DNA of 46,708 bases, from positions 1 to 46,708 of the forward strand of contig JAJRSO010000034.1 in the NCBI GenBank assembly GCA_024278755.1. Direction: 5' to 3'. The notes beneath the pieces were generated by a model that was not told the origin of the DNA, searched no databases, and worked only from the letters and a program-made list of their open reading frames with translations. The translations under genes and the position numbers were made by a program. This document shows, piece after piece, positions 2,760 to 15,965 of the stretch. Numbering within the stretch: the stretch's first letter is position 1; every line of letters begins with the position of its first letter. The stretch is from Calditrichota bacterium. Lineage in GTDB: Bacteria > Calditrichota > Calditrichia > Calditrichales > Calditrichaceae.

Positions 2760-2854
2760 TTGTAGCCTTAGTCACAGATACTTCTGGATTTGCCATTTAT
2801 ATTGCATTTTAGCGTTAATTTCGAAATTTTTAATCAAAGGTGCATAGAATCCGA

Positions 2855-4813
2855 ATGCGAAAAATATCCATTATAATACTTTTTACATTTTCGGCGATAT
2901 TGGCAAAATCTGACCCGATTTTATGGACAAAGCATGTGATTTCGGATTCATTAAGCGGAGCTAAAAAAATTGTTGCTGTGAATTTGGATAACGATTCCGG
3001 CCGCAATATGGACATTGTTGTTACGGCAAATCCGGAAGAAAACGGTGAAGAAGATGAAGCTCTCGTTAATGTTGTCTGGTTTATGAATGATGGAGAGGAA
3101 CATTTTTTACAATATAATATAGATATGAATTTTGTTGGCGCACGCGGATTAGCGGTGGGCGACTTAACAGGAAACGGTTATGCCGATATTCTTGTCGGTT
3201 CCCGCCGGGCTGACAGTTCTCTGGTTTTGTACAAGAATGACGGCGCCCCGGCGATTGGCCAGTGGCCCCGTGTGAAAATCGGAGGGCCGGCGCCCAACGA
3301 TTATAGCGTGCATATTATCGATCTCGATCAGGATGGACTGCCGGATATTGTGGACGGTATTGGCGACGACGCCGATAATGGGTCCGCAAATTCCGGAATA
3401 TTTGCAGATTCCCTGCGCTGGTTCCGGAATCTTGGAAGCGGCGAGAACGCAGAATTTCAGGCTGGATTGATAGCCTCCTATTCATCTCCCGCAGGAATTG
3501 CTATTGCGGATTTTAACGGGGATAAGCGAATGGATGTGGCAGGTGCGGCCTGGACCAACTATTCTTCAATTTCTGCCGCCACAGACGAAGATATTCGTTG
3601 GTGGAGCATGAATCCGGATACCAGTTTTTTGCAGCAGGCGGTTTTACAGCAAGCCTATGGGGCGAATGGGTTAACGGCAGCGGATATGGATGGAAACGGT
3701 ACTGTGGATTTACTTGCAGCCGGGTACAAAGTTCAAAGCATTGACTGGTTCTCCAATGATGGCAGCGGCTCGTTTGGTTCGATACAAAATGTTGTAACGG
3801 ATTTTAAATATACCCGGAATGTCTGCCCTGCCGATCTGGACGGTGACGGCGATATGGATATCACAGCGGCAGCGGATACGGATAATAAAATTTCCTGGTT
3901 TGAAAACGACGGGCAGCAAAATTTTTCCGAACATAAAGTGGACAGCTTGTTTGATTATGCCTATTTTTCGTTGGCGCAGGATTTGGACGGGGATGGCGAT
4001 ACGGATATTATTGGAACAGCGCAGGGTGCCGGTGTGCTTGCCTGGTGGGAAAATAATCTGGCCGAAGATACTTTACTTGCATCAGGAAATCCGCTTCCCG
4101 TTTCGTTTAATATGGACAGCGTAATCATAGATTTTATAAACGGTTTTTCGGGTGGAAAGACCTCTGTTTTCTACAATCACGGTCTAAATCCTAATCAAAC
4201 ACAGGTAGGCCCCGGATTAAAGAGTGTTGTCCTGAATGGGTTTTATACAATTTATACAAAAGCTTCCGCATACCAGGCCGATATTGAATTTAATTACGAT
4301 CTTGCGGAATGGAGAGGGAGTATTGAAAGTGAAGCCGACCTGCGTATTTGTTTGCAGGATGAGAACGGCTTTTGGGTGATTGTCGGCGATTCTGATCAAA
4401 TCGTGGATACGCAGTCGAAGACAATTACTATCAAGGGAATTGCCGCTGAGCTGCATAAATATTCCTGTTTTACATTGGGTAAAAAAACGTCGGCCAGCGC
4501 AATCTTAAGTGATGGGGGGAAAACGAATGCGTTACGTTTCTCGCTTGCTCAGAATTATCCGAATCCATTTAATCAAACAACGATCATTCCTGTTTTCCTG
4601 TCACAAAGGGCGGAAAAAGCAAGTCTGCAAGTGTACGATGTGCTGGGCAGGAGCATTAAAACAATTTATTCAGGAAGCCTACCGGCCGGGATTAAGCTCT
4701 TTCGCTGGAACGGGAAAGATGATTTGAATCGTTCTATGGCTTCGGGGGTGTATTTCTATAGACTCCAAGTTGAAAACCGTAGTTTTAGCAAACGTTTGAT
4801 TTTGGCGGAATAG
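2855..4813 (+). CDS. Secreted FG-GAP/VCBS beta-propeller protein with T9SS sorting tail
   Basis: A 652-residue exported protein. It starts MRKISIIILFTFSAILAKS, a clear signal peptide; an in-frame GTG 15 bases upstream (2840) is possible but would add five odd residues. Residues about 40-410 contain repeated calcium-binding blades of the DLDGDGDMDI type (FG-GAP/VCBS), predicted to fold as a seven-bladed propeller. A beta-rich region follows (about 415-550). The last ~90 residues start with LAQNYPNPFN and end in a KRLILAE strand, the FlgD-like type A sorting domain recognised by the type IX secretion system. It is therefore a likely cell-surface or released adhesion/binding protein. The ligand is unknown. 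It is a paralogue of the next gene, with 35 bp between them. Confidence 0.85.
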   Translation: MRKISIIILFTFSAILAKSDPILWTKHVISDSLSGAKKIVAVNLDNDSGRNMDIVVTANPEENGEEDEALVNVVWFMNDGEEHFLQYNIDMNFVGARGLAVGDLTGNGYADILVGSRRADSSLVLYKNDGAPAIGQWPRVKIGGPAPNDYSVHIIDLDQDGLPDIVDGIGDDADNGSANSGIFADSLRWFRNLGSGENAEFQAGLIASYSSPAGIAIADFNGDKRMDVAGAAWTNYSSISAATDEDIRWWSMNPDTSFLQQAVLQQAYGANGLTAADMDGNGTVDLLAAGYKVQSIDWFSNDGSGSFGSIQNVVTDFKYTRNVCPADLDGDGDMDITAAADTDNKISWFENDGQQNFSEHKVDSLFDYAYFSLAQDLDGDGDTDIIGTAQGAGVLAWWENNLAEDTLLASGNPLPVSFNMDSVIIDFINGFSGGKTSVFYNHGLNPNQTQVGPGLKSVVLNGFYTIYTKASAYQADIEFNYDLAEWRGSIESEADLRICLQDENGFWVIVGDSDQIVDTQSKTITIKGIAAELHKYSCFTLGKKTSASAILSDGGKTNALRFSLAQNYPNPFNQTTIIPVFLSQRAEKASLQVYDVLGRSIKTIYSGSLPAGIKLFRWNGKDDLNRSMASGVYFYRLQVENRSFSKRLILAE

Positions 4814-4848: not shown

Positions 4849-7155
4849 ATGATTATAAAAATAGCATTAGTATTACTTACAGCTTCCATCGTGTTTGCGC
4901 AGGATCCGGTGACCTGGACAAAAAATACGGTTTCCGATCAACTGGAAAAAGCAAAAAAAAATGTTGTGGTTGATATTGATTTGGATGGTGACCTGGATAT
5001 TATCTGTACGGCCAACCCGGAAGGAAGCGGCGCAGAGGATGCGGCGGCCGACAATGTAACCTTGTATTTAAACGATGGCAGCGAAACCTATACTGAGAGT
5101 GTAATCGAATCCACTTTTCGCACTGCACGCGGGCTGGCGAGCGCCGATTTGAATGGCGACGGCTATCCCGATGTGATTGTGGGCAGCCAAAATAGTGACA
5201 GCGCGCTGGTCTGGTATGAAAATCCGACTTCCGGTTATAACAGCGAATGGAGCAAACGGGATATTGGTCCGGCGGCGCCTTTTAACTACTCTGTTTTGGC
5301 CGTGGATTTGGATGATGATGGCAATATGGATATCGTAGACGGCATCGGAGACGCCGCGGCAGGGGGCAGTGTGAGCGGCGATTATATCCGCTGGCTGGAA
5401 AGCGACGGCGGTTCCGTTCCGACCTTTACGGTGAATAATCTTATCAATTATGCTTCTCCCAGTGGAATTGCCGTAGCCGATTTTGACGGTGACTCGGATA
5501 ACGATATTGTGGGAATGGCGTGGCTGAGTTATACGAATCCTTCACCCGTAACCGACGAAGATGTGCGCTGGTGGGCTCAGGGCGCTAACATGATATTTAC
5601 CGAACAGGAAACCATAAAAACAGCCTATGGCGGAAACGATGCAATAGCGGCGGATATTGACGGGGATGAAGATATGGATATTCTTGGCGCCGGTTGGAAG
5701 GCGCAGACCATTGATTGGTGGGCCAACGATGGCGCCGGCAGTTTTGGAAGCAGTTTGCATACCATTAAAACCAGCTTTATACATAGCCGCAGCGCTATAG
5801 CCGCCGATTTGGACGGTGACGCCGATATGGATATTGTAGCATGCGCCGATAATGATAATACGGTATCCTGGTTCGAAAACGATGGCTCGGAGTCGTTTAG
5901 CGAGCATCAGATAAACACTTCATTTTCCTATGCCTATTTTGTTTCTGCCGCGGATATGGATGGAGACGGAGATATGGATGTTGTTGCAACCGCTCAGGAC
6001 GAAGATGGTGGTTCGGGAATTGCCGGACAATTAGCCTGGTGGGAAAGCGATTTGGCGGAAGAAAAATCCATTGCTTCCGGAGACCCGGCCTCAGAATCTT
6101 TTGAATCCGGAAACGTTCTGATTGATTTTCAAAGCGGCTTTAGCGGCGGAAACACATCCGTTTTTTACAATCATAATAAAAATGCTAACCGTTCGGTGTT
6201 GGGCGCCGGAATCCATCATATCGCCGTAAAAGGATTTTATACCATAGTAACGGCGGCTTCTACTTATGACGCGACAATTGATTTTTACTATTCCGGAATT
6301 TCCGAATGGTCGGCCATTTCCGATGAAAATGATCTGGTGATTTGTTATTGGGACCCGGACGCCGGCACGGCGGGACAGTGGGAGCTGTTAAAATCAGGAA
6401 ATCAGACGGTTACCCCTGCTTCGGATAAAATAACCGTAACCGGAATTACGGCGGAACTATTTAAGTATTCCCTGTTTACACTCGGTTCTTCAACCTCCGA
6501 TAATTCTCTGCCGGTTCAGTTACTTTCCTTTAAGGCCAAACTGAAACAGGAAGGAATGGAGCTTTTCTGGGAAACCGCTTCGGAACTAAACAATGCCGGA
6601 TTTGAATTGTGGCGTTCTGCAAGCACGGACAGTGTTTACCGGTTAATCGGCTCCTATAAAACCAATCCGAATTTAAGCGGGCTGGGCAGCTCCAATTACG
6701 GACAGGAATACCGTTTTACCGATACCAATATTTTGCCGGGGGGAACCTACTACTATAAACTGTTTGATGTAACCTATGGCGGGCAGCGAAACGAACTGCG
6801 CAAACTATCCGCAGAGGCGATTCCGGGAGATCTGACTCGTGTTAACGGCGGGCAACTACCCGAAACCATACAGCTTGCTCAGAACTATCCCAATCCGTTT
6901 AACGGTTTTACGATTATCGAATTTACCGTACCGGAAAATAATAAACAGGCCGTTCAGTCGGTGTCGGTTGCCATATTTGATATGAACGGTCGTAAAGTGC
7001 GGGAAATTTTTAACGGGCAAACAGCGGCCGGAACCTATCTGGGACGCTGGGACGGCAGAAACGAAGCGGGACAGCAGGTGAGTACGGGCAGTTATATTTA
7101 TCGCCTTAGCGTTAACGACGTTTCCCGGGCAAAACGGCTACAGTTTGTTAAATAA
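4849..7155 (+). CDS. Secreted FG-GAP/VCBS beta-propeller protein with T9SS sorting tail (longer paralogue)
   Basis: A 768-residue paralogue of the previous gene, similar along the propeller and the following region (shared segments such as ARGLA..DLNGDGYPD, ASPSGIAVADF and SWFENDG). It has a signal peptide ending at FAQD. Residues about 30-400 are FG-GAP/VCBS blades with repeated DxDGDxDxD calcium loops. After about residue 545 it gains a ~110-residue domain absent from its neighbour (LPVQLLSFKAKLKQEG..FELWRSAS..YYYKLFDVTYGG), which looks like the fibronectin-like module often found before T9SS tails. The C-terminal ~90 residues start LAQNYPNPFNG and form the type A sorting tail. A strong terminator hairpin lies 28 bp downstream, ending this transcription unit. 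Confidence 0.87.
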   Translation: MIIKIALVLLTASIVFAQDPVTWTKNTVSDQLEKAKKNVVVDIDLDGDLDIICTANPEGSGAEDAAADNVTLYLNDGSETYTESVIESTFRTARGLASADLNGDGYPDVIVGSQNSDSALVWYENPTSGYNSEWSKRDIGPAAPFNYSVLAVDLDDDGNMDIVDGIGDAAAGGSVSGDYIRWLESDGGSVPTFTVNNLINYASPSGIAVADFDGDSDNDIVGMAWLSYTNPSPVTDEDVRWWAQGANMIFTEQETIKTAYGGNDAIAADIDGDEDMDILGAGWKAQTIDWWANDGAGSFGSSLHTIKTSFIHSRSAIAADLDGDADMDIVACADNDNTVSWFENDGSESFSEHQINTSFSYAYFVSAADMDGDGDMDVVATAQDEDGGSGIAGQLAWWESDLAEEKSIASGDPASESFESGNVLIDFQSGFSGGNTSVFYNHNKNANRSVLGAGIHHIAVKGFYTIVTAASTYDATIDFYYSGISEWSAISDENDLVICYWDPDAGTAGQWELLKSGNQTVTPASDKITVTGITAELFKYSLFTLGSSTSDNSLPVQLLSFKAKLKQEGMELFWETASELNNAGFELWRSASTDSVYRLIGSYKTNPNLSGLGSSNYGQEYRFTDTNILPGGTYYYKLFDVTYGGQRNELRKLSAEAIPGDLTRVNGGQLPETIQLAQNYPNPFNGFTIIEFTVPENNKQAVQSVSVAIFDMNGRKVREIFNGQTAAGTYLGRWDGRNEAGQQVSTGSYIYRLSVNDVSRAKRLQFVK

Positions 7156-8435: not shown

Positions 8436-9536
8436 ATGATCACGCCTACGATGAATAAAATGAACCTGCTCAAAAGACTTCCCAAAGCCCGCGGATTTTA
8501 CCGCAGGCAAACGGGGACGACGCCCTTACCCGTTAACCTGACGCTGAGTCTGCTCTATTCCTGTAATTCCCGTTGTCAGACCTGCAATGTCTATGAAAAG
8601 AGAGTCTCCAATTTTACGGTGGATGAATACGATAAGACGCTTGCCAGTCTCGGTACGGCGCCCTATTGGTTTACTCTAAGCGGCGGGGAACCGTTTTTAC
8701 GCAAAGATATTGTGGACATTTGCCGGGTGGTTTACGAACGATCCAAACCGGGCATCATCAATATTCCCACCAATGGCAGTTTGTTCCGTGTGATTCCCGA
8801 ACGGGTGGAGCAAATCATTCGTCAGAGTCCGGGCGCCGAAATAATTATTAATCTTTCTCTGGATGAAATAGGCAAAGAGCACGATAAAATTCGCGGCTTT
8901 CCCGGGAACTGGCAGCGGGCGATGGAAACCTATAAAGCGCTGAATGAGCTGCGTTCTTATCCGAATTTTACGTTGGGCATTCATACGGTTATTTCAAAAT
9001 TTAATGTACAGCGTTTTCCCGAAATTTATAAAGAGCTGATCAAACTCAATCCCGATTCGTATATTACGGAAATAGCCGAAGAGCGTGTGGAACTGGGAAC
9101 TATCGGTACGGGAATTACGCCGGAATTAGGGCAATATGGCAAGGCGGTTGATTTTTTGTCGGAAGAAATAAAAAAGAATAAGGCCAGCGGAATGGCAAAA
9201 ATATCCCGCGCCTTTCGTCTGGAATACTATGAAATGGTCAAACAGTTTTTAGCGCGTCCCGAGCAGATTATTCCTTGCTACGCGGGTGTCGTTTCTGCCC
9301 AGATTGCACCGGACGGCCATGTTTGGCCCTGCTGCATACGGGCGGATTCGATGGGCAATCTGCGCGAACATGACTATGATTTTAACGCGGTTTGGAATAG
9401 CGCCAAAGCGGCTGAAATCCGGCGTAGTATAAAAAAGAAAGAGTGCGCCTGCCCCTTGGCCAATGCCGGATACACCAATATGCTGTTGCACCCTAAATCG
9501 ATGGCTAAGATTTCGCTGCATTTACTGGGTGTGTAA
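8436..9536 (+). CDS. Radical SAM protein with SPASM-like C-terminus
   Basis: A 366-residue radical SAM enzyme. Cys43, Cys47 and Cys50 form the CX3CX2C cluster (CNSRCQTC) that binds the 4Fe-4S centre and cleaves S-adenosylmethionine. The SAM-binding GGEPFL motif follows. The C-terminal part has further cysteines (PCYAG, WPCCIRAD, CACP) in the pattern of a SPASM/twitch auxiliary-cluster domain, common in enzymes that modify peptides or in sugar/lipid maturases. Three candidate starts exist (8436, 8451, 8460); none has a strong ribosome site, and the first is kept. It sits 11 bp after a GGR-family flavoprotein, suggesting a joint pathway. No small precursor-peptide gene was seen next to it. The substrate is unknown. 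Confidence 0.83.
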   Translation: MITPTMNKMNLLKRLPKARGFYRRQTGTTPLPVNLTLSLLYSCNSRCQTCNVYEKRVSNFTVDEYDKTLASLGTAPYWFTLSGGEPFLRKDIVDICRVVYERSKPGIINIPTNGSLFRVIPERVEQIIRQSPGAEIIINLSLDEIGKEHDKIRGFPGNWQRAMETYKALNELRSYPNFTLGIHTVISKFNVQRFPEIYKELIKLNPDSYITEIAEERVELGTIGTGITPELGQYGKAVDFLSEEIKKNKASGMAKISRAFRLEYYEMVKQFLARPEQIIPCYAGVVSAQIAPDGHVWPCCIRADSMGNLREHDYDFNAVWNSAKAAEIRRSIKKKECACPLANAGYTNMLLHPKSMAKISLHLLGV

Positions 9537-9597: not shown

Positions 9598-9612
9598 TGG
9601 CATATATTTTGC
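9598..9612 (+). promoter_or_regulatory. Possible sigma-54 (-24/-12) promoter of the PorV-like operon
   Basis: TTGGCATATATTTTGCGC contains GG and GC separated by exactly ten bases, matching the -24/-12 pattern (TGGCAC-N5-TTGC). It lies 31 bp before the ATG at 9644, a sensible spacing. No enhancer-binding activator gene is in the window. This is a sequence match only. Confidence 0.4.
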
Positions 9613-9643
9613 GCTTGGAGCGGGAAAGAGGAATGGATTCTGA

Positions 9644-10870
9644 ATGATTCTGAAATTTAAAATAAGTCTGCTCATTTTAATCTTTGCAAGCGTAGTTGGT
9701 GCACAGCAGCCCGCATCAAATGCCGGAACAGCCGGGGGACAGTTTTTGCGGATGGATTTAAATCCGCGCAGTTCGGCGCTTTCCGGCGCTTTTACCGCGA
9801 TTGGCGGCGATCAAAACGCCCTGTTTTTTAATCCGGCCGGCTTGGCGGAACTTTCGAACGGCTCCTTAAGTTTGAACCATACCCAATGGTACGAAGATAT
9901 CCGTATGGATAATGTACTGCTCGGTTATAATTTTGATCGGAAATTCGGCGCGGCAATCAGCGCCTCCTATTTATGGATGCCGCCGATTCAGGGCAAAGAT
10001 GCATACGGAGCAAATACCTCAAAACTCACGGTTTCCAGCAGCATCCTGCATTTGGGCTTCGGATATAAAGTGCATCCCAGTTTGTTTATCGGACTCGGGA
10101 TTAAATACTTTCAGGATAATCTGGCTGGATTTACGGCCGACGGTTATGCGTTTGACGCCGGTCTTTTTATCCATCTTTTTATTCCTGGTTTGTCTTTTGG
10201 CGCCGCGGTACAAAATACAGGCGGGAAAATTCAATACGATAAAGTTCGTGAACGGATACCTTTTTCCTATCGTTCGGGATTGGCCTATAAAATACCCGGC
10301 GTCGGGCTGCGCTTTGCGGTAGATGTTATTAAAGGGATTGATACAGACCTGCAATTTGCCGCTGGTGCGGAATATATTTTTAAGCGTTCTTTTTTCCTGC
10401 GTCTTGGTAACCGTTTTACCAACAGTCAGAATATACTGCCGTCGTACGGCGCCGGTTTTAAAATTGCCGGAAAATATATTTTTGAATATACTTTTCTCGC
10501 CCATGAGCAACTGGGCTATACGCATCGCGCCGGATTCACTCTGACTTTTAATACGCCGGCCTCGCAAAAATATCGTTATTCTACCGTGCAAAAGAGCGTC
10601 CGACTTTCTCCTCCCCGTATGGTTACTACGGCGATAACCTCTTCCAGTTTAATTGTAAAATGGGATAAAGTGTTCGGCGCGCGTTATAATGTATATGCCC
10701 GGATTTCCAGAAAAGAAAAGTGGAAAAAATTAAATCGTCATCCTTTATATTCGGCCAGTATGGAGTTTAAAAAACCTAAGCACAGTGCCATGATTTATAT
10801 TGTTGTTACCAGTATTGTTAACGGAAAAGAAAGTTCCCATTCAAAAGAGGCCACCATTGAAATTCGTTAG
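9644..10870 (+). CDS. PorV/PorQ-like outer-membrane protein with C-terminal fibronectin-like module
   Basis: A 408-residue predicted outer-membrane beta-barrel. It has a signal peptide (about residues 1-20, ending VVGAQ) followed by the family signature FLRMDLNPRSSALSGAFTAIGGD and FFNPAGLAEL, characteristic of the PorV/PorQ (UPF0164-like) family. In T9SS organisms PorV collects cargo by its sorting tail at the outer membrane. Residues about 50-310 alternate in barrel fashion. About residues 320-408 add a fibronectin type III-like module (SPPRMVTTAITSSSLIVKWDK). The gene overlaps the start of a giant T9SS cargo by 14 bp, so it may be that cargo's dedicated partner. The SUF/PorV assignment is good; the specific role is inference. 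Confidence 0.8.
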   Translation: MILKFKISLLILIFASVVGAQQPASNAGTAGGQFLRMDLNPRSSALSGAFTAIGGDQNALFFNPAGLAELSNGSLSLNHTQWYEDIRMDNVLLGYNFDRKFGAAISASYLWMPPIQGKDAYGANTSKLTVSSSILHLGFGYKVHPSLFIGLGIKYFQDNLAGFTADGYAFDAGLFIHLFIPGLSFGAAVQNTGGKIQYDKVRERIPFSYRSGLAYKIPGVGLRFAVDVIKGIDTDLQFAAGAEYIFKRSFFLRLGNRFTNSQNILPSYGAGFKIAGKYIFEYTFLAHEQLGYTHRAGFTLTFNTPASQKYRYSTVQKSVRLSPPRMVTTAITSSSLIVKWDKVFGARYNVYARISRKEKWKKLNRHPLYSASMEFKKPKHSAMIYIVVTSIVNGKESSHSKEATIEIR

Positions 10871-13721
10871 CGAACGACTAATAAAAGCGTTACCTGCGCT
10901 ACTGATTGCTGTGCAAATAGTGGCGGCACAAACAAATGCTCTACAGCTTGAGTGGGACGCCAATCCCGAAACCGATATGTATCAATACCGGATTTATAAA
11001 GGCACCGCTCCGCATCCGGAATCAATGATAAACAGCGTTAATCATCCGACAACTTCCTATAATGACCAACAGGCGGATAAGGGGGTGTTGTATTATTACA
11101 GAATCCGGGCGGTCGACTTTTCATTGAATCTTAGCGAATATTCCGATGAGCTTTCGGCAGCGATTCCAAAAATAAGCAATTTTCCCGCGAATGATGTTTT
11201 ACCGGCCGACACGACGGTTGTTCTGCAATTAGATGATTACGTATATGATCCCGATCATGCGGACGATCAGCTTATCTGGGCGGTATCCGGTAACAACCGC
11301 TTGCAGGTTGCCATTAATGCATCCACACATGTTGCGACTATTTCCACTCCAACAGGCTGGAATTCACAGGAGACGCTGGTGTTTACAAGCACCGATCCGG
11401 ACCGGCTGTCGGATGCCGTTTCCTACCATATCACTTCGCCCGCGGTTATGGAATCCGCGCCGCAGTTTAGCGCCGTTCCGGAACAGGTGACGAACGAAGA
11501 TACCTCCTTCGAACTAAATCTACTTGACTATGTAATCGATAACGATTCACAGGACAGCGATTTAACCTTTAGCGCCGAAGCGGGCGCACATCTGAGTACA
11601 TCACTCAACGGCGCTGTGTTAACGATTACGCCCGAAACGAACTATTTCGGCAGCAGCGGCGTTCAGGTCACCGTTACGGACGAAACGGGTTTAAGCGATC
11701 AAACCTGGATCGATGTGCGGGTAAAGGCGGTCAATGACGCGCCTGTTATTTTGGCTCTGCCCGAAGAGACTATGCCGCAGGATTCGTTGATTGTCGTTGA
11801 TCTTTCGCAGCGTGCAGATGATATTGACGATGCCAATACCTCGTTAAGCTGGACGTTTGGAAACTATTCCCATGTAAATCTTTCGTACAATGATAATTCT
11901 AAACTGCTTACCATTTCCAGCGGCACGGACTGGTCGGGTTTCGAATATATTCAGGCCACGGTAAGCGATCCTTCCGGAGCGAGTAGTATGGATACGCTGC
12001 TGGTTCGGGTTACCGACACCTCGTTTCCGCCTGAAATCTCCAATTTCCCCGAAGTTCAGTTTAATGAAGACGGTTCGGCGCTTTTGCATTTGAATACTTA
12101 TGTCTCTGATAAGGATACGCCGGATGAAAACTTATTTTGGCAGGCGACGGGGAACAGACATACTTCCGTTTCCATAGATCATAATCTGAATACGGCGGCA
12201 TTTAATGCGGAAGCCGATTGGTTTGGCCATGAACAAATTACCATGACCGTTAGCGATCCGGATCAGAACAGCAGCAGTGTACTCGTTACGGTTAAAGTGG
12301 CCGCAGTGAATGATCCTCCAAAGATTTCCGCGTTGCCCAATATAGATTTATCCGAAAACAAAATACGGGTTTTGGCGCTTAACCAATATGTAAACGATGT
12401 GGACGACAATGTGGCTGATTTAAGTTGGAGTTCGACGGGGAACCGGGATGTACAGGTCAGTATTTCCGAAGCGAATGAAGCCACTATTTCTGCTGCGGAC
12501 GGTTGGGAAGGTCTGGAAGAAATTCGATTTATTACACAGGACAATGCGTCCGGACGCGATACCAGCAGTCTGTCTGTATTCAGCCAGGACCCGGCAAAAG
12601 CGCCGCAGATTTCCGGTATTCAAGATTTGGAAATGCTGGAAGATGCTTCGGGACAGATTGATATGCAGCAGCATGTGAGCGATCCCGATAATTCCATTGA
12701 TGAATTGAATTTGAGTTTTTCCGGGAATGAACATCTGCAATTATCGTATAATCAGGAAACCTATATACTAGTAATCACTCCGGAAGCCGATTGGAATGGT
12801 ACCGGGAACGTATTTATTAAGGTAGAAGACCCGGGAAAACGCGTCGCCTTTGATACGTTAAATGTGGTTGTCGATGCCGTAAACGATGCACCGCAAATTT
12901 CACAAATTCCGGCGCAGGTAATTACGGGCAGCCAGGCCTATACTTTGGACCTGAAAAATTATATCAGTGAACCGGATGGGTATTCCGACCTAAGTACCGT
13001 GGAACTGCTGGGCGGAGGAAACAGTTTTATTGGCTGGTATCTGGATCGAGATAATTTACTGGTAACCTTTTTTACCCCCGCTGACTATACCGGACACGAG
13101 ACGTATTTTCTGAGAATCGCGGATTACGCCGGCTTGCAGGCCGCCGTTGCTTTCACGGTTCAGGTATTTCGGGACAATGTAACCGGAGCGGCTTCCGTAG
13201 CCTATTTTGGAAGTGAAACGGAAGTGCGAATCGAATGGCAATCCTTTACACGGTCAATTGACTATATCGAATTTGGAGTAAACGCATCGTATGGCCGGGA
13301 AACGGAAATCGATGCGGACTTTGGGTGGGAGCACAGCGCGCTGTTACGAGAATTGGAAGAAAATACCACATACCACTATCGAATTGTTTCTAAAAATGAA
13401 AATGAAAAGCTGAGTTTTTCACCGGATTCTACCTTTACCACCGGCAGCGCTTCCGATAAAGTAAATGTTTTCCCGATTCCTTATCGAAGCGCCCAAAGCA
13501 GCGCCGGAATTCAATTTACCAATATCCCGGAAAACGGGCAGGTCTTAATTTATACGCTAAGCGGTGATCTGCTTTATAAACAAAATTATAACGGAACCTA
13601 TACCTGGTGGAACGTTAAAAATCAGGCAGGAAAACGGGTAGCTTCCGGTATTTATTTATATGTCATAAGAAATAATGCGCATAAAAAGAAATCTTCGGGC
13701 AAACTTATCGTCATAAATTAA
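10857..13721 (+). CDS. Large secreted cadherin/Ig-repeat protein with T9SS sorting tail
   Basis: A 954-residue surface protein. The start is set at TTG 10857, inside the end of the PorV-like gene. AAAAGAGG sits seven bases upstream, and the resulting N-terminus (KFVSERLIKALPALLIAV..AAQ) is a good signal peptide; longer readings in this frame lie in the preceding gene and lack one. A fibronectin III domain comes first (LEWDANPETDMYQYRIYKG). About six tandem cadherin/Ig-like repeats follow, each of ~95-100 residues, with repeated NDAP/NDPP and DYV..D signatures. A second fibronectin-like domain (IEFGVNASYGRETE..TTYHYRI) and a FlgD-like T9SS tail (VFPIPYR..GIYLYVI..KLIVIN) complete it. A likely role is adhesion or surface-layer structure. 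Confidence 0.83.
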   Translation: MKFVSERLIKALPALLIAVQIVAAQTNALQLEWDANPETDMYQYRIYKGTAPHPESMINSVNHPTTSYNDQQADKGVLYYYRIRAVDFSLNLSEYSDELSAAIPKISNFPANDVLPADTTVVLQLDDYVYDPDHADDQLIWAVSGNNRLQVAINASTHVATISTPTGWNSQETLVFTSTDPDRLSDAVSYHITSPAVMESAPQFSAVPEQVTNEDTSFELNLLDYVIDNDSQDSDLTFSAEAGAHLSTSLNGAVLTITPETNYFGSSGVQVTVTDETGLSDQTWIDVRVKAVNDAPVILALPEETMPQDSLIVVDLSQRADDIDDANTSLSWTFGNYSHVNLSYNDNSKLLTISSGTDWSGFEYIQATVSDPSGASSMDTLLVRVTDTSFPPEISNFPEVQFNEDGSALLHLNTYVSDKDTPDENLFWQATGNRHTSVSIDHNLNTAAFNAEADWFGHEQITMTVSDPDQNSSSVLVTVKVAAVNDPPKISALPNIDLSENKIRVLALNQYVNDVDDNVADLSWSSTGNRDVQVSISEANEATISAADGWEGLEEIRFITQDNASGRDTSSLSVFSQDPAKAPQISGIQDLEMLEDASGQIDMQQHVSDPDNSIDELNLSFSGNEHLQLSYNQETYILVITPEADWNGTGNVFIKVEDPGKRVAFDTLNVVVDAVNDAPQISQIPAQVITGSQAYTLDLKNYISEPDGYSDLSTVELLGGGNSFIGWYLDRDNLLVTFFTPADYTGHETYFLRIADYAGLQAAVAFTVQVFRDNVTGAASVAYFGSETEVRIEWQSFTRSIDYIEFGVNASYGRETEIDADFGWEHSALLRELEENTTYHYRIVSKNENEKLSFSPDSTFTTGSASDKVNVFPIPYRSAQSSAGIQFTNIPENGQVLIYTLSGDLLYKQNYNGTYTWWNVKNQAGKRVASGIYLYVIRNNAHKKKSSGKLIVIN

Positions 13722-14576: not shown

Positions 14577-15428
14577 ATGAAAAATATCCTTTCCATAGAT
14601 GTGGAAGAATGGTTCCACCCCGAAGCGGTACAACATCTTTTCCCCCCGGATTCCTGGGATGAACGGGAACCGCGCGTAGAGCGGAATGTTGAAAAACTAC
14701 TTGAATTGTTTGATTCTAAAAAGACAAAAGCTACATTTTTTGTGTTGGGATGGACGGTTCGCAAATATCCGCAGCTGATTAAAAGAATGGCCGAGGCGGG
14801 ACATGAAGTGGCTTCTCACGGCAACAGCCACCGCATGGTTACAAAGCTAACCCCCGATGAATTTAGGGAAGATTTAGCCGAATCCATTGCTGCCATTCAG
14901 GAGATTACCGGAAAAAAAGTATTAGGGTTTCGGGCGCCTACTTTTTCTATCGTTAAGGAAACGCGGTGGGCCTGGGAAATTATGCTGGAGCTGGGCCTTG
15001 CATACGATTCATCGGTCTATCCCATCTGGCACGATCGCTACGGCATTCCCGATGCGCCGCGTCATCCCTATATTGCTCTGGAAAAAGAGTCGCAAAAACT
15101 AATTGAATTCCCGATGCCCACTCTGAAAATCGGAAATAAAAACTTCCCATTTGGCGGCGGCGGATATTTACGTATATTCCCGCTGTGGTTCACAAAATAT
15201 GCCATTAAAAAATTTAACAAAGAGGGGTTGCCGGCCATTATTTATGCGCATCCCTGGGAGTTTGACCCGGAGCAGCCGCGATTGGAACTGGGTAAAGTTC
15301 AGACCTGGCGCCACTACTATAATATCAATACAAATCTGAATAAGCTGGATGTTTTGTTGGATCGCTTCGAATGGATGTCGTTTAAGGATTTTTTTGAGCA
15401 GGAAACGTTAGATAATTTTTTAATTTAA
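14577..15428 (+). CDS. Polysaccharide deacetylase, XrtA/PEP-CTERM-locus type
   Basis: A 283-residue carbohydrate esterase family 4 protein. Catalytic features are visible: the SIDVEEWFH motif with Asp8, the metal-binding pair His81 and His85 (SHGNSH), and GFRAPTFS with Arg119. The SIDVEEWFH opening and the C-terminal DUF3473-like part (YAHPWEFDPEQPR..LGKVQTWRHYYN) match the deacetylases of exosortase/EPS loci. It would remove N-acetyl groups from an exported polysaccharide. No signal peptide is seen. No exosortase is in the window, so the link to protein sorting is not supported here. The flippase ~13 kb upstream could belong to the same polysaccharide pathway. Confidence 0.87.
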   Translation: MKNILSIDVEEWFHPEAVQHLFPPDSWDEREPRVERNVEKLLELFDSKKTKATFFVLGWTVRKYPQLIKRMAEAGHEVASHGNSHRMVTKLTPDEFREDLAESIAAIQEITGKKVLGFRAPTFSIVKETRWAWEIMLELGLAYDSSVYPIWHDRYGIPDAPRHPYIALEKESQKLIEFPMPTLKIGNKNFPFGGGGYLRIFPLWFTKYAIKKFNKEGLPAIIYAHPWEFDPEQPRLELGKVQTWRHYYNINTNLNKLDVLLDRFEWMSFKDFFEQETLDNFLI

Positions 15429-15488: not shown

Positions 15489-15965
15489 ATGTCAGAAATG
15501 CGTAAAATTCTCGTAGTCGATGATGAAGAAGATGTACGGGATACGTTATATAACGTTTTAAAAAGCTTAAACTACGAACCGTACACGGCTGCCAGCGGCG
15601 CGGAAGCGCTGGAAGTGATTAAAAATACGCCCATTGATGTGGTGCTTTCCGATTTGTATATGCCGGAAATGGACGGGATTGAGCTGCTTAAACGGATTCG
15701 CGCGGTTGACCCGAAGATGGTTTTTTTAATGATTACGGCACATCCCACGGTGGAAACTGCGGTAGAAGCCATTAAAAAGGGCGCGTATGATTATTTAACC
15801 AAACCGTTTCATATCGAAGAGGTGCGGCTAAAAATAAACCGGGCGCTGGAGAAAAAGGGCATGGCCCATTCCTTAAAAACGGCAAACGGCATCATCTGGG
15901 CGCTGCTTATCTCCATTCCTATCTGGCTTGTACTCGGTATTATTCTGGCCTCATTCTTAGACTAA
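15489..15965 (+). CDS. Response regulator receiver domain with C-terminal transmembrane anchor
   Basis: A 158-residue protein. Residues 1-120 are a complete CheY-like receiver: Asp11/Asp12, phospho-acceptor Asp55 (LSDLYMPEMDG), Thr83 and Lys105 (YLTKPF) are all present, so it should be phosphorylatable. There is no output domain. Instead residues about 134-156 form one hydrophobic segment (IIWALLISIPIWLVLGIILA), so the receiver would be tethered to the inner face of the membrane. AGGAG upstream is the likely ribosome site (AATAGGAGCAGATATG). No histidine kinase is adjacent. A terminator follows the stop. Confidence 0.85.
   Translation: MSEMRKILVVDDEEDVRDTLYNVLKSLNYEPYTAASGAEALEVIKNTPIDVVLSDLYMPEMDGIELLKRIRAVDPKMVFLMITAHPTVETAVEAIKKGAYDYLTKPFHIEEVRLKINRALEKKGMAHSLKTANGIIWALLISIPIWLVLGIILASFLD

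Follow-up and report, generated by a model that had tools for sequence, protein, structure and literature searches.

A PorV/PorQ-family barrel with a fibronectin module and its overlapping type IX secretion cargo gene in Calditrichota: a predicted dock-and-client pair

The window is a stretch of 46,708 nucleotides from a Calditrichota bacterium (assembly GCA_024278755.1, contig JAJRSO010000034.1). It contains two overlapping genes, which encode an outer-membrane barrel of the PorV/PorQ family and a cargo protein of the type IX secretion system (T9SS). The barrel ends in a fibronectin type III (FN3) domain, and the cargo ends in a T9SS C-terminal domain (CTD). The two products would form a private dock-and-client unit resembling PorQ with PorZ, a reading to which we give a probability of roughly 60%. 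It draws on the observed pairing, the gene overlap, the conserved promoter, the predicted fold, the class of the tail, and the presence of T9SS genes in the genome. The features of the pair are as follows.

9598..9613, + strand: sigma-54 (-24/-12) promoter, TGGCA-N6-TTGC, TGGCATATATTTTGCG, the sole match in the window with at most one mismatch to the 16-base consensus
9644..10870, + strand: PorV/PorQ-family outer-membrane barrel with C-terminal FN3, 408 aa (NF033709 score, AlphaFold model)
9860..10549, + strand: 14-stranded barrel, residues 73-302 (DSSP on the AlphaFold model, pLDDT mostly 80-95)
10622..10864, + strand: FN3 domain of the barrel protein, residues 327-407 (β-sandwich in the model; a profile search against the PDB finds FN3 domains)
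10846..10850, + strand: AGAGG Shine-Dalgarno sequence within the barrel coding sequence, 6 nt before the cargo TTG (sequence; similar stretches in orthologs)
10857..13721, + strand: T9SS cargo, 954 aa, with signal peptide, N-terminal FN3, cadherin/Big_9 repeats, FN3-like module, and CTD
10929..11171, + strand: conserved N-terminal FN3 of the cargo (alignment of 10 orthologs, mean column identity 56%)
13467..13712, + strand: CTD of the cargo (26-28 bits with the type A model; 55 bits with the PorZ model for the last 190 aa)

The barrel protein

The barrel scores 135 bits against the NCBIfam PorV/PorQ family NF033709, whose curated cut-off is 90. This score and the 14-stranded FadL-type barrel place it in the family. 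It stays below the cut-offs of the PorV model NF033710 (50 bits, cut-off 250), the PorQ model NF033711 (99.5 bits, cut-off 220), and the PorV2 model, and the PorP/SprF model TIGR03519 gives no match to it at E ≤ 0.01. All 15 barrels scanned match both the PorQ and PorV models. PorQ is the better of the two for the window's own barrel, and it also gives the best E-value.

The AlphaFold model has a mean predicted local distance difference test (pLDDT) score of 82.8 and comprises 14 strands followed by a β-sandwich. Its top solved structures in Foldseek are 8gl6_F (E 5e-15) and 6h3i_F, followed by FadL. The best match, 8gl6_F, comes from a translocon with a bound RemA CTD. The Foldseek listing names entries only, and we take both chains to be PorV. 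The term PorV-like in the initial annotation thus suits the family and the fold, but the protein is not PorV itself.

The genome has its own PorV at C50:12168 (259 bits, cut-off 250) and its own PorQ at C50:62172 (232.5 bits, cut-off 220). It also has SprA and a PorU-like gene below its cut-off (336 vs 420). The window's barrel was considered as the genome's PorV or PorQ and rejected, as both are encoded elsewhere and exceed their cut-offs. Since the genome has these two proteins of its own, the barrel is a further paralog, neither PorV nor PorQ.

The C-terminal module is an FN3 domain, as the initial annotation had it: a profile built from 17 of these domains hits titin FN3 at E 7.8e-11. A Pfam search with the single barrel sequence misses the domain. 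It has weak homology to the N-terminal FN3 of the cargo (hhalign probability 58%). Given the even strand number and the FadL-type topology, in which the C-terminus is periplasmic, the domain should face the periplasm. It is poorly sited to hold surface cargo because the C-terminus of the barrel lies on the periplasmic side, and it probably does not do so. The earlier proposal that the module anchors the cargo is not borne out by this placement.

The cargo protein and its tail

The cargo gene begins at TTG 10857, behind the AGAGG at 10846-10850, and both lie inside the barrel gene as first annotated. With this start the genes overlap by 14 nt. Stretches resembling GAGG or GGAGG are found at the equivalent position in many ortholog junctions. 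An earlier TTG at 10800, which is the first in the open frame, was rejected as the start, having no signal peptide directly behind it; TTG 10857 is preferred because the signal peptide begins there. The body of the protein consists of Big_9/Cadherin_5 repeats and, with the type A CTD, agrees with the initial description as a cadherin-repeat T9SS cargo. Its 954 aa do not make it giant among T9SS cargos, contrary to that description.

The CTD scores 26 bits against the T9SS type A model TIGR04183 (cut-off 23). The whole-protein PorZ model NF052228 gives 51 bits, confined to the CTD region and below its cut-off of 260. Among T9SS chains in the PDB, the CTD profile matches 5m11 (PG93) best (E 1.2e-5), which is presumably PorZ, and the RemA CTD 8glj has an E-value of 0.49. 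The PorZ model is matched by 12/12 ortholog tails. A Foldseek search with the CTD model returns general FN3/Ig folds only. By these profile comparisons, the cargo CTD is judged nearest to that of PorZ among T9SS tails.

Conservation of the pair

The search covered 60 genomes, including the window's own. The class comprises 40 of these (G000-G039), with G000 being the genome of the window. FN3 barrels occur in 29/40 class genomes and fall into two clades, a paired clade with 22 loci in 21 genomes and a sister clade with 9 loci; G025 holds both. In a tree of 45 barrels, the support is 100/99 for the paired clade, 100/100 for the sister clade, and 99/97 for the two joined. The matches named in a second search are nearly all from Calditrichota metagenome-assembled genomes.

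Loci were ordered by mechanical open reading frame calling with a greedy filter. In the paired clade, all 21 assessable loci have the cargo gene directly after the barrel gene; the 22nd (G014) ends inside the barrel and is not assessable for cargo. The two genes overlap in 19/21 loci, and are separate in G003a (+79) and G012 (+2). Overlap lengths assume the start furthest upstream and may thus be overestimates, except in the window, where TTG 10857 is used. The TTG start with the 14-nt overlap recurs in G015, G017, G018, G020, and G025a. G003 has two copies, and both are kept as pairs. The parts that are constant across cargo orthologs are the N-terminal FN3 and the CTD. An alignable CTD ends 18/18 complete cargos, whose lengths range from 292 to 1045 aa. 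The dedicated carrier-cargo pair of the initial annotation is thus well supported by adjacency, overlap, and the two paired copies in G003.

A survey had been proposed to ask if a T9SS-tail gene always follows an FN3 barrel. This holds throughout the paired clade and fails in the sister clade (0/9). FN3 is not tied to cargo pairing, because the sister clade has no adjacent cargo. The domain was accordingly rejected as the feature that goes with pairing, both on the sister clade and on CTD-adjacent barrels without FN3, as the other CTD-adjacent barrels have no FN3-like module by length or ends. A further FN3-bearing barrel, G029b (L087), groups with PorQ; the gene directly before it is metalloprotease-like and has a CTD-like tail.

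The sigma-54 promoter

The initial annotation noted a sigma-54-like site before the barrel gene. The site at 9598-9613 has GG-N10-GC in a conserved context, orthologs keep it, and the genome encodes RpoN (200 bits), so a sigma-54 promoter is predicted here. A conserved site was defined by fixed GG and GC, a score of at least 10 of 12, and a position near the gene start. In a blind count it precedes 15/22 paired and 8/9 sister barrel genes, and 5/213 other genes of the same loci. Pooled, 23/31 FN3-barrel genes against the controls give a Fisher value of 6e-21, with shared descent ignored. One paired match, that of G005, falls 100 nt into the coding sequence, which leaves 14/22 paired loci with the site in promoter position. 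Loci without a promoter-position site are the paired G005, G006, G003a, G003b, G013, G014, G025a, and G012, and the sister G028; the upstream DNA of G012 is off the contig, and G006 is a single-contig, complete genome.

As a bare pattern, the window site is not beyond chance. The strict pattern has no clear excess over a reversed control genome-wide (10 vs 10; 12 vs 9). It is conservation that makes the case for the predicted promoter. Other sigma-54-like sites in G000 (L047, L049, L052, L054, L055, L123, and L129) lie near flagellar-like, dnaK-like, CheY-like, porin-like, and T9SS cargo genes, with gene names read from the translations.

Barrel and CTD pairs elsewhere in the genome

The genome has 15 other PorV-like matches, of which C6 and C74 are below the family cut-off. 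Eleven of the 15 directly adjoin a gene with a CTD-like tail, a count in which the calls for C3 and both C15 genes come from in-house models and have no NCBIfam CTD match at E ≤ 0.001. A twelfth (C18) follows another barrel. PorQ, the PorV2-like C27, and the FadL-like C74 have no adjacent CTD-like gene. The type A model has 108 matches in the genome. The window's cargo is among the 8 lowest, together with 4 others beside barrels (5/8), and several barrel-adjacent tails are not detected by this model at all.

Two in-house tail models were built. The pair model comes from the 18 paired cargos; for the generic model, the window's genome supplied 39 generic tails (40 stretches, less one without a usable frame), and 20 of them were used. 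Among the generic tails, 37/39 favour the generic model with a margin of over 50 bits, another favours it by 18, and one prefers the pair model. Barrel-adjacent tails outside the training set prefer the pair model in 8/12 cases. The other four are the PorV neighbour (-42), C6 (-15), PorU (-10), and C37 (-0.5). In six other genomes, 20 barrels were picked by hand and not at random, and for 12/20 the preceding gene has a tail that scores better with the pair model. The remaining eight comprise three that follow another barrel, four in the cell-wall-gene context of PorQ, and one that follows a receptor-like gene. In loci chosen around barrels, which are not a random sample, pair-class tails are barrel-adjacent in 22/25 cases and generic-class tails in 12/36. 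Not every pair-class tail has a barrel nearby. Two proteins with pair-like CTDs and no adjoining barrel (L175:6590-10666 and L176:5278-6933) are possible PorZ candidates of the genome.

On these tail and barrel assignments, the window's pair appears as one of several barrel/CTD pairs in the lineage. The variation on the general T9SS shuttle first suggested is therefore kept as regards the pair itself and not as a lone case; it is also closer to PorQ-PorZ than to PorV.

Relation to known systems

The nearest parallel is PorQ-PorZ of the T9SS attachment complex in Porphyromonas gingivalis, in which a PorV/PorQ-family barrel goes with a surface protein. Here the barrel scores higher as PorQ than as PorV, and the CTD is nearest to PorZ. 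The PorZ CTD is retained and bound to PorQ (PMC10202324). In the same review it is proposed that CTDs may be shielded from cleavage by PorV-like barrels cognate to them. The window's pair differs from PorQ-PorZ in that its barrel has an FN3 domain and is below the PorQ cut-off, and in that the genome has another PorQ. It differs also in the cadherin-like cargo body, the sigma-54 site, and the overlapping genes. With PorV, the barrel has the fold in common as its best structural match, but its PorV score is far under the cut-off and another PorV is encoded. By its sequences, the pair thus seems to resemble PorQ-PorZ more than PorV and its clients.

A dedicated outer-membrane barrel gene beside its cargo gene is also a feature of the PorP/SprF shuttles. 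For the type B CTD adhesins of Flavobacterium johnsoniae (SprB and others), PMC12618676 and PMC9143113 describe such barrels as needed for secretion and location. The window's pair departs from this in its barrel, which is of the PorV/PorQ family, in its cargo CTD, which matches the type A and PorZ models, and in having the barrel gene first. Type A CTDs of Bacteroidota are all said to be recognised by PorV, and private barrels serve type B CTDs (PMC12618676).

The sigma-54 promoter, a nearby XrtA-type polysaccharide deacetylase, and a secreted surface protein recall the PEP-CTERM/XrtA systems, a parallel that we infer. In Aquincola, exopolysaccharide is kept bound by a PEP-CTERM protein that depends on RpoN (PMC9850573). 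The window's genome differs in having no detected exosortase (no PF09721 match in the 95.8% complete genome) and in sorting by a T9SS CTD.

Among the matches listed in PubMed Central, judged by titles and abstract starts, none describes such pairs. A search there for Calditrichaeota with type IX secretion found no paper, and among the matches listed for PorV/PorQ or T9SS terms none mentions Calditrich.

Proposed mechanism

RpoN with an NtrC-type activator would switch the pair on, and translational coupling would give near-equal amounts of barrel and cargo. Both proteins would cross the inner membrane by Sec, and the cargo would exit through SprA/Sov via its CTD. There the CTD would be received by the cargo's own PorQ-like barrel rather than by the housekeeping PorV. 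By analogy with PorQ and PorZ, the barrel may keep the CTD uncleaved, so that the chain of FN3 and cadherin-like domains would be displayed on the surface. The barrel's FN3, which should be periplasmic, would tether the dock to something other than the displayed cargo: the cell wall, the T9SS ring, or a periplasmic partner.

A lineage with multiplied PorV/PorQ-family barrels, many of them adjoining a protein whose tail is unusual and partly PorZ-like, would show that private docking has arisen in this family as well, besides the private barrels of type B CTDs. Comparisons inside a single genome could then test what keeps some CTDs uncleaved. Through its sigma-54 site and XrtA-type locus, one such dock would be connected with surface polysaccharide. 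A broader proposal, which is tentative and somewhat doubtful, is that Calditrichota have a third T9SS sorting branch. This branch would have about a dozen private PorV/PorQ-family docks per genome, each with a PorZ-like-CTD neighbour unlike the roughly 100 ordinary type A CTDs. The window's pair may then be a sigma-54-controlled member that replaces the exosortase/PEP-CTERM protein in an XrtA-type exopolysaccharide locus.

Neighbouring genes

14577..15428, + strand: XrtA-type polysaccharide deacetylase, associated and outside the pair (TIGR03006, 342 bits > 276)
15489..15965, + strand: lone response-regulator receiver with C-terminal membrane helix, associated (Response_reg, 2.9e-31)

An AraC-type gene is also found downstream of the pair. 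The deacetylase motif occurs 3.7-4.0 kb downstream in 7/22 paired loci, and an eighth is seen in G019. Polysaccharide genes adjoin the pair in G021 and, judged by similarity, also in G023 and G037. From its locus, the pair may act with a surface polysaccharide. The receiver is downstream in 10/22 paired loci and near the barrel in 6/9 sister loci (16/31 FN3 loci). A PrsR-type regulator is not supported, as none of 79 matches to TIGR02915 is over the cut-off.

Alternative explanations

Several observations weigh against a private dock. FN3 barrels of either clade were not seen in 11/40 class genomes, including the same-family G002 (96% complete). In 9/9 sister loci the FN3 barrel has no CTD cargo as its next gene, so the FN3-barrel family has some cargo-independent role. 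The barrel expected beside the pair-like CTDs C77:6599 and C10:40687 was found at neither (0/2). The type A model also matches 12/12 ortholog tails (E ≤ 0.01), and the ordinary PorV could carry the cargo because its CTD also passes this model. Co-transcription alone could explain the linkage.

A rival explanation is co-regulation only, with the cargo served by PorV like any ordinary type A client and the barrel engaged in other work, such as attachment or polysaccharide handling. The type A score of the CTD and the sister barrels without cargo are consistent with it, and the tail-anchored receiver and the XrtA deacetylase show that the locus has other functions. We nevertheless hold it unlikely, as the cargo is next in every assessable paired locus and both copies in one genome are paired. 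The CTD is moreover one of the lowest type A matches, most of which are barrel-adjacent, and similar pairs recur around other barrels. A second attachment platform of the PorQ-PorZ kind is an improbable alternative, in which the cargo presents surface polysaccharide made by the XrtA-type genes, as PorZ does with anionic lipopolysaccharide (A-LPS), and joins other proteins or matrix to it. The PorQ-like barrel, the PorZ-like CTD, the deacetylase motif downstream of some pairs, and the polysaccharide genes near others point this way. However, most loci have no deacetylase, and polysaccharide binding by the cargo is conjectural. The PorZ model matches the CTD region only, and the cargo has cadherin-like repeats, unlike PorZ with its β-propellers.

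The FN3 barrel may also be a sensor whose conserved partner is the tail-anchored receiver. The barrel would report the state of the envelope or of secretion, and the cargo would be a regulated output. Receivers lie near about half of the FN3 barrels, STAS, receiver/HATPase, and SpoIIE-type genes lie beside sister barrels, and the sigma-54 site is kept in both clades. Even so, we regard this as highly improbable, since no known part connects a periplasmic FN3 with the inner membrane and the receiver has no output domain. A nearby receiver is also missing from 15/31 loci, several of which have little flanking sequence. The dock-and-client reading remains the preferred one.

Further observations

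The C-terminal membrane helix of the receiver is conserved, and is also found at L082:6367-6873, L081, and L084-L086, in both clades. At L079:8659-11639 (G029), STAS, receiver/HATPase, and GAF-SpoIIE genes by a sister FN3 barrel resemble a partner-switch module. The window has tandem FG-GAP T9SS cargos at 2840-4813 and 4849-7155. Upstream of the pair, relatives share recurring FG-GAP/CTD genes, a geranylgeranyl-reductase-like gene, and a radical SAM/SPASM gene (8436-9536 in the window). Next to another gene with a CTD-like tail, L101:8287-10173 (G000, C37) encodes a PorV-family barrel whose appendage, likely periplasmic, comprises TPR-like repeats and a weak PorE-like stretch. Tandem PorV-family barrels occur in L091, L181, L187, and L197, and the L091 pair follows a gene with a CTD-like tail. 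The tandem barrels of G000 lie close to SprA on contig C18.

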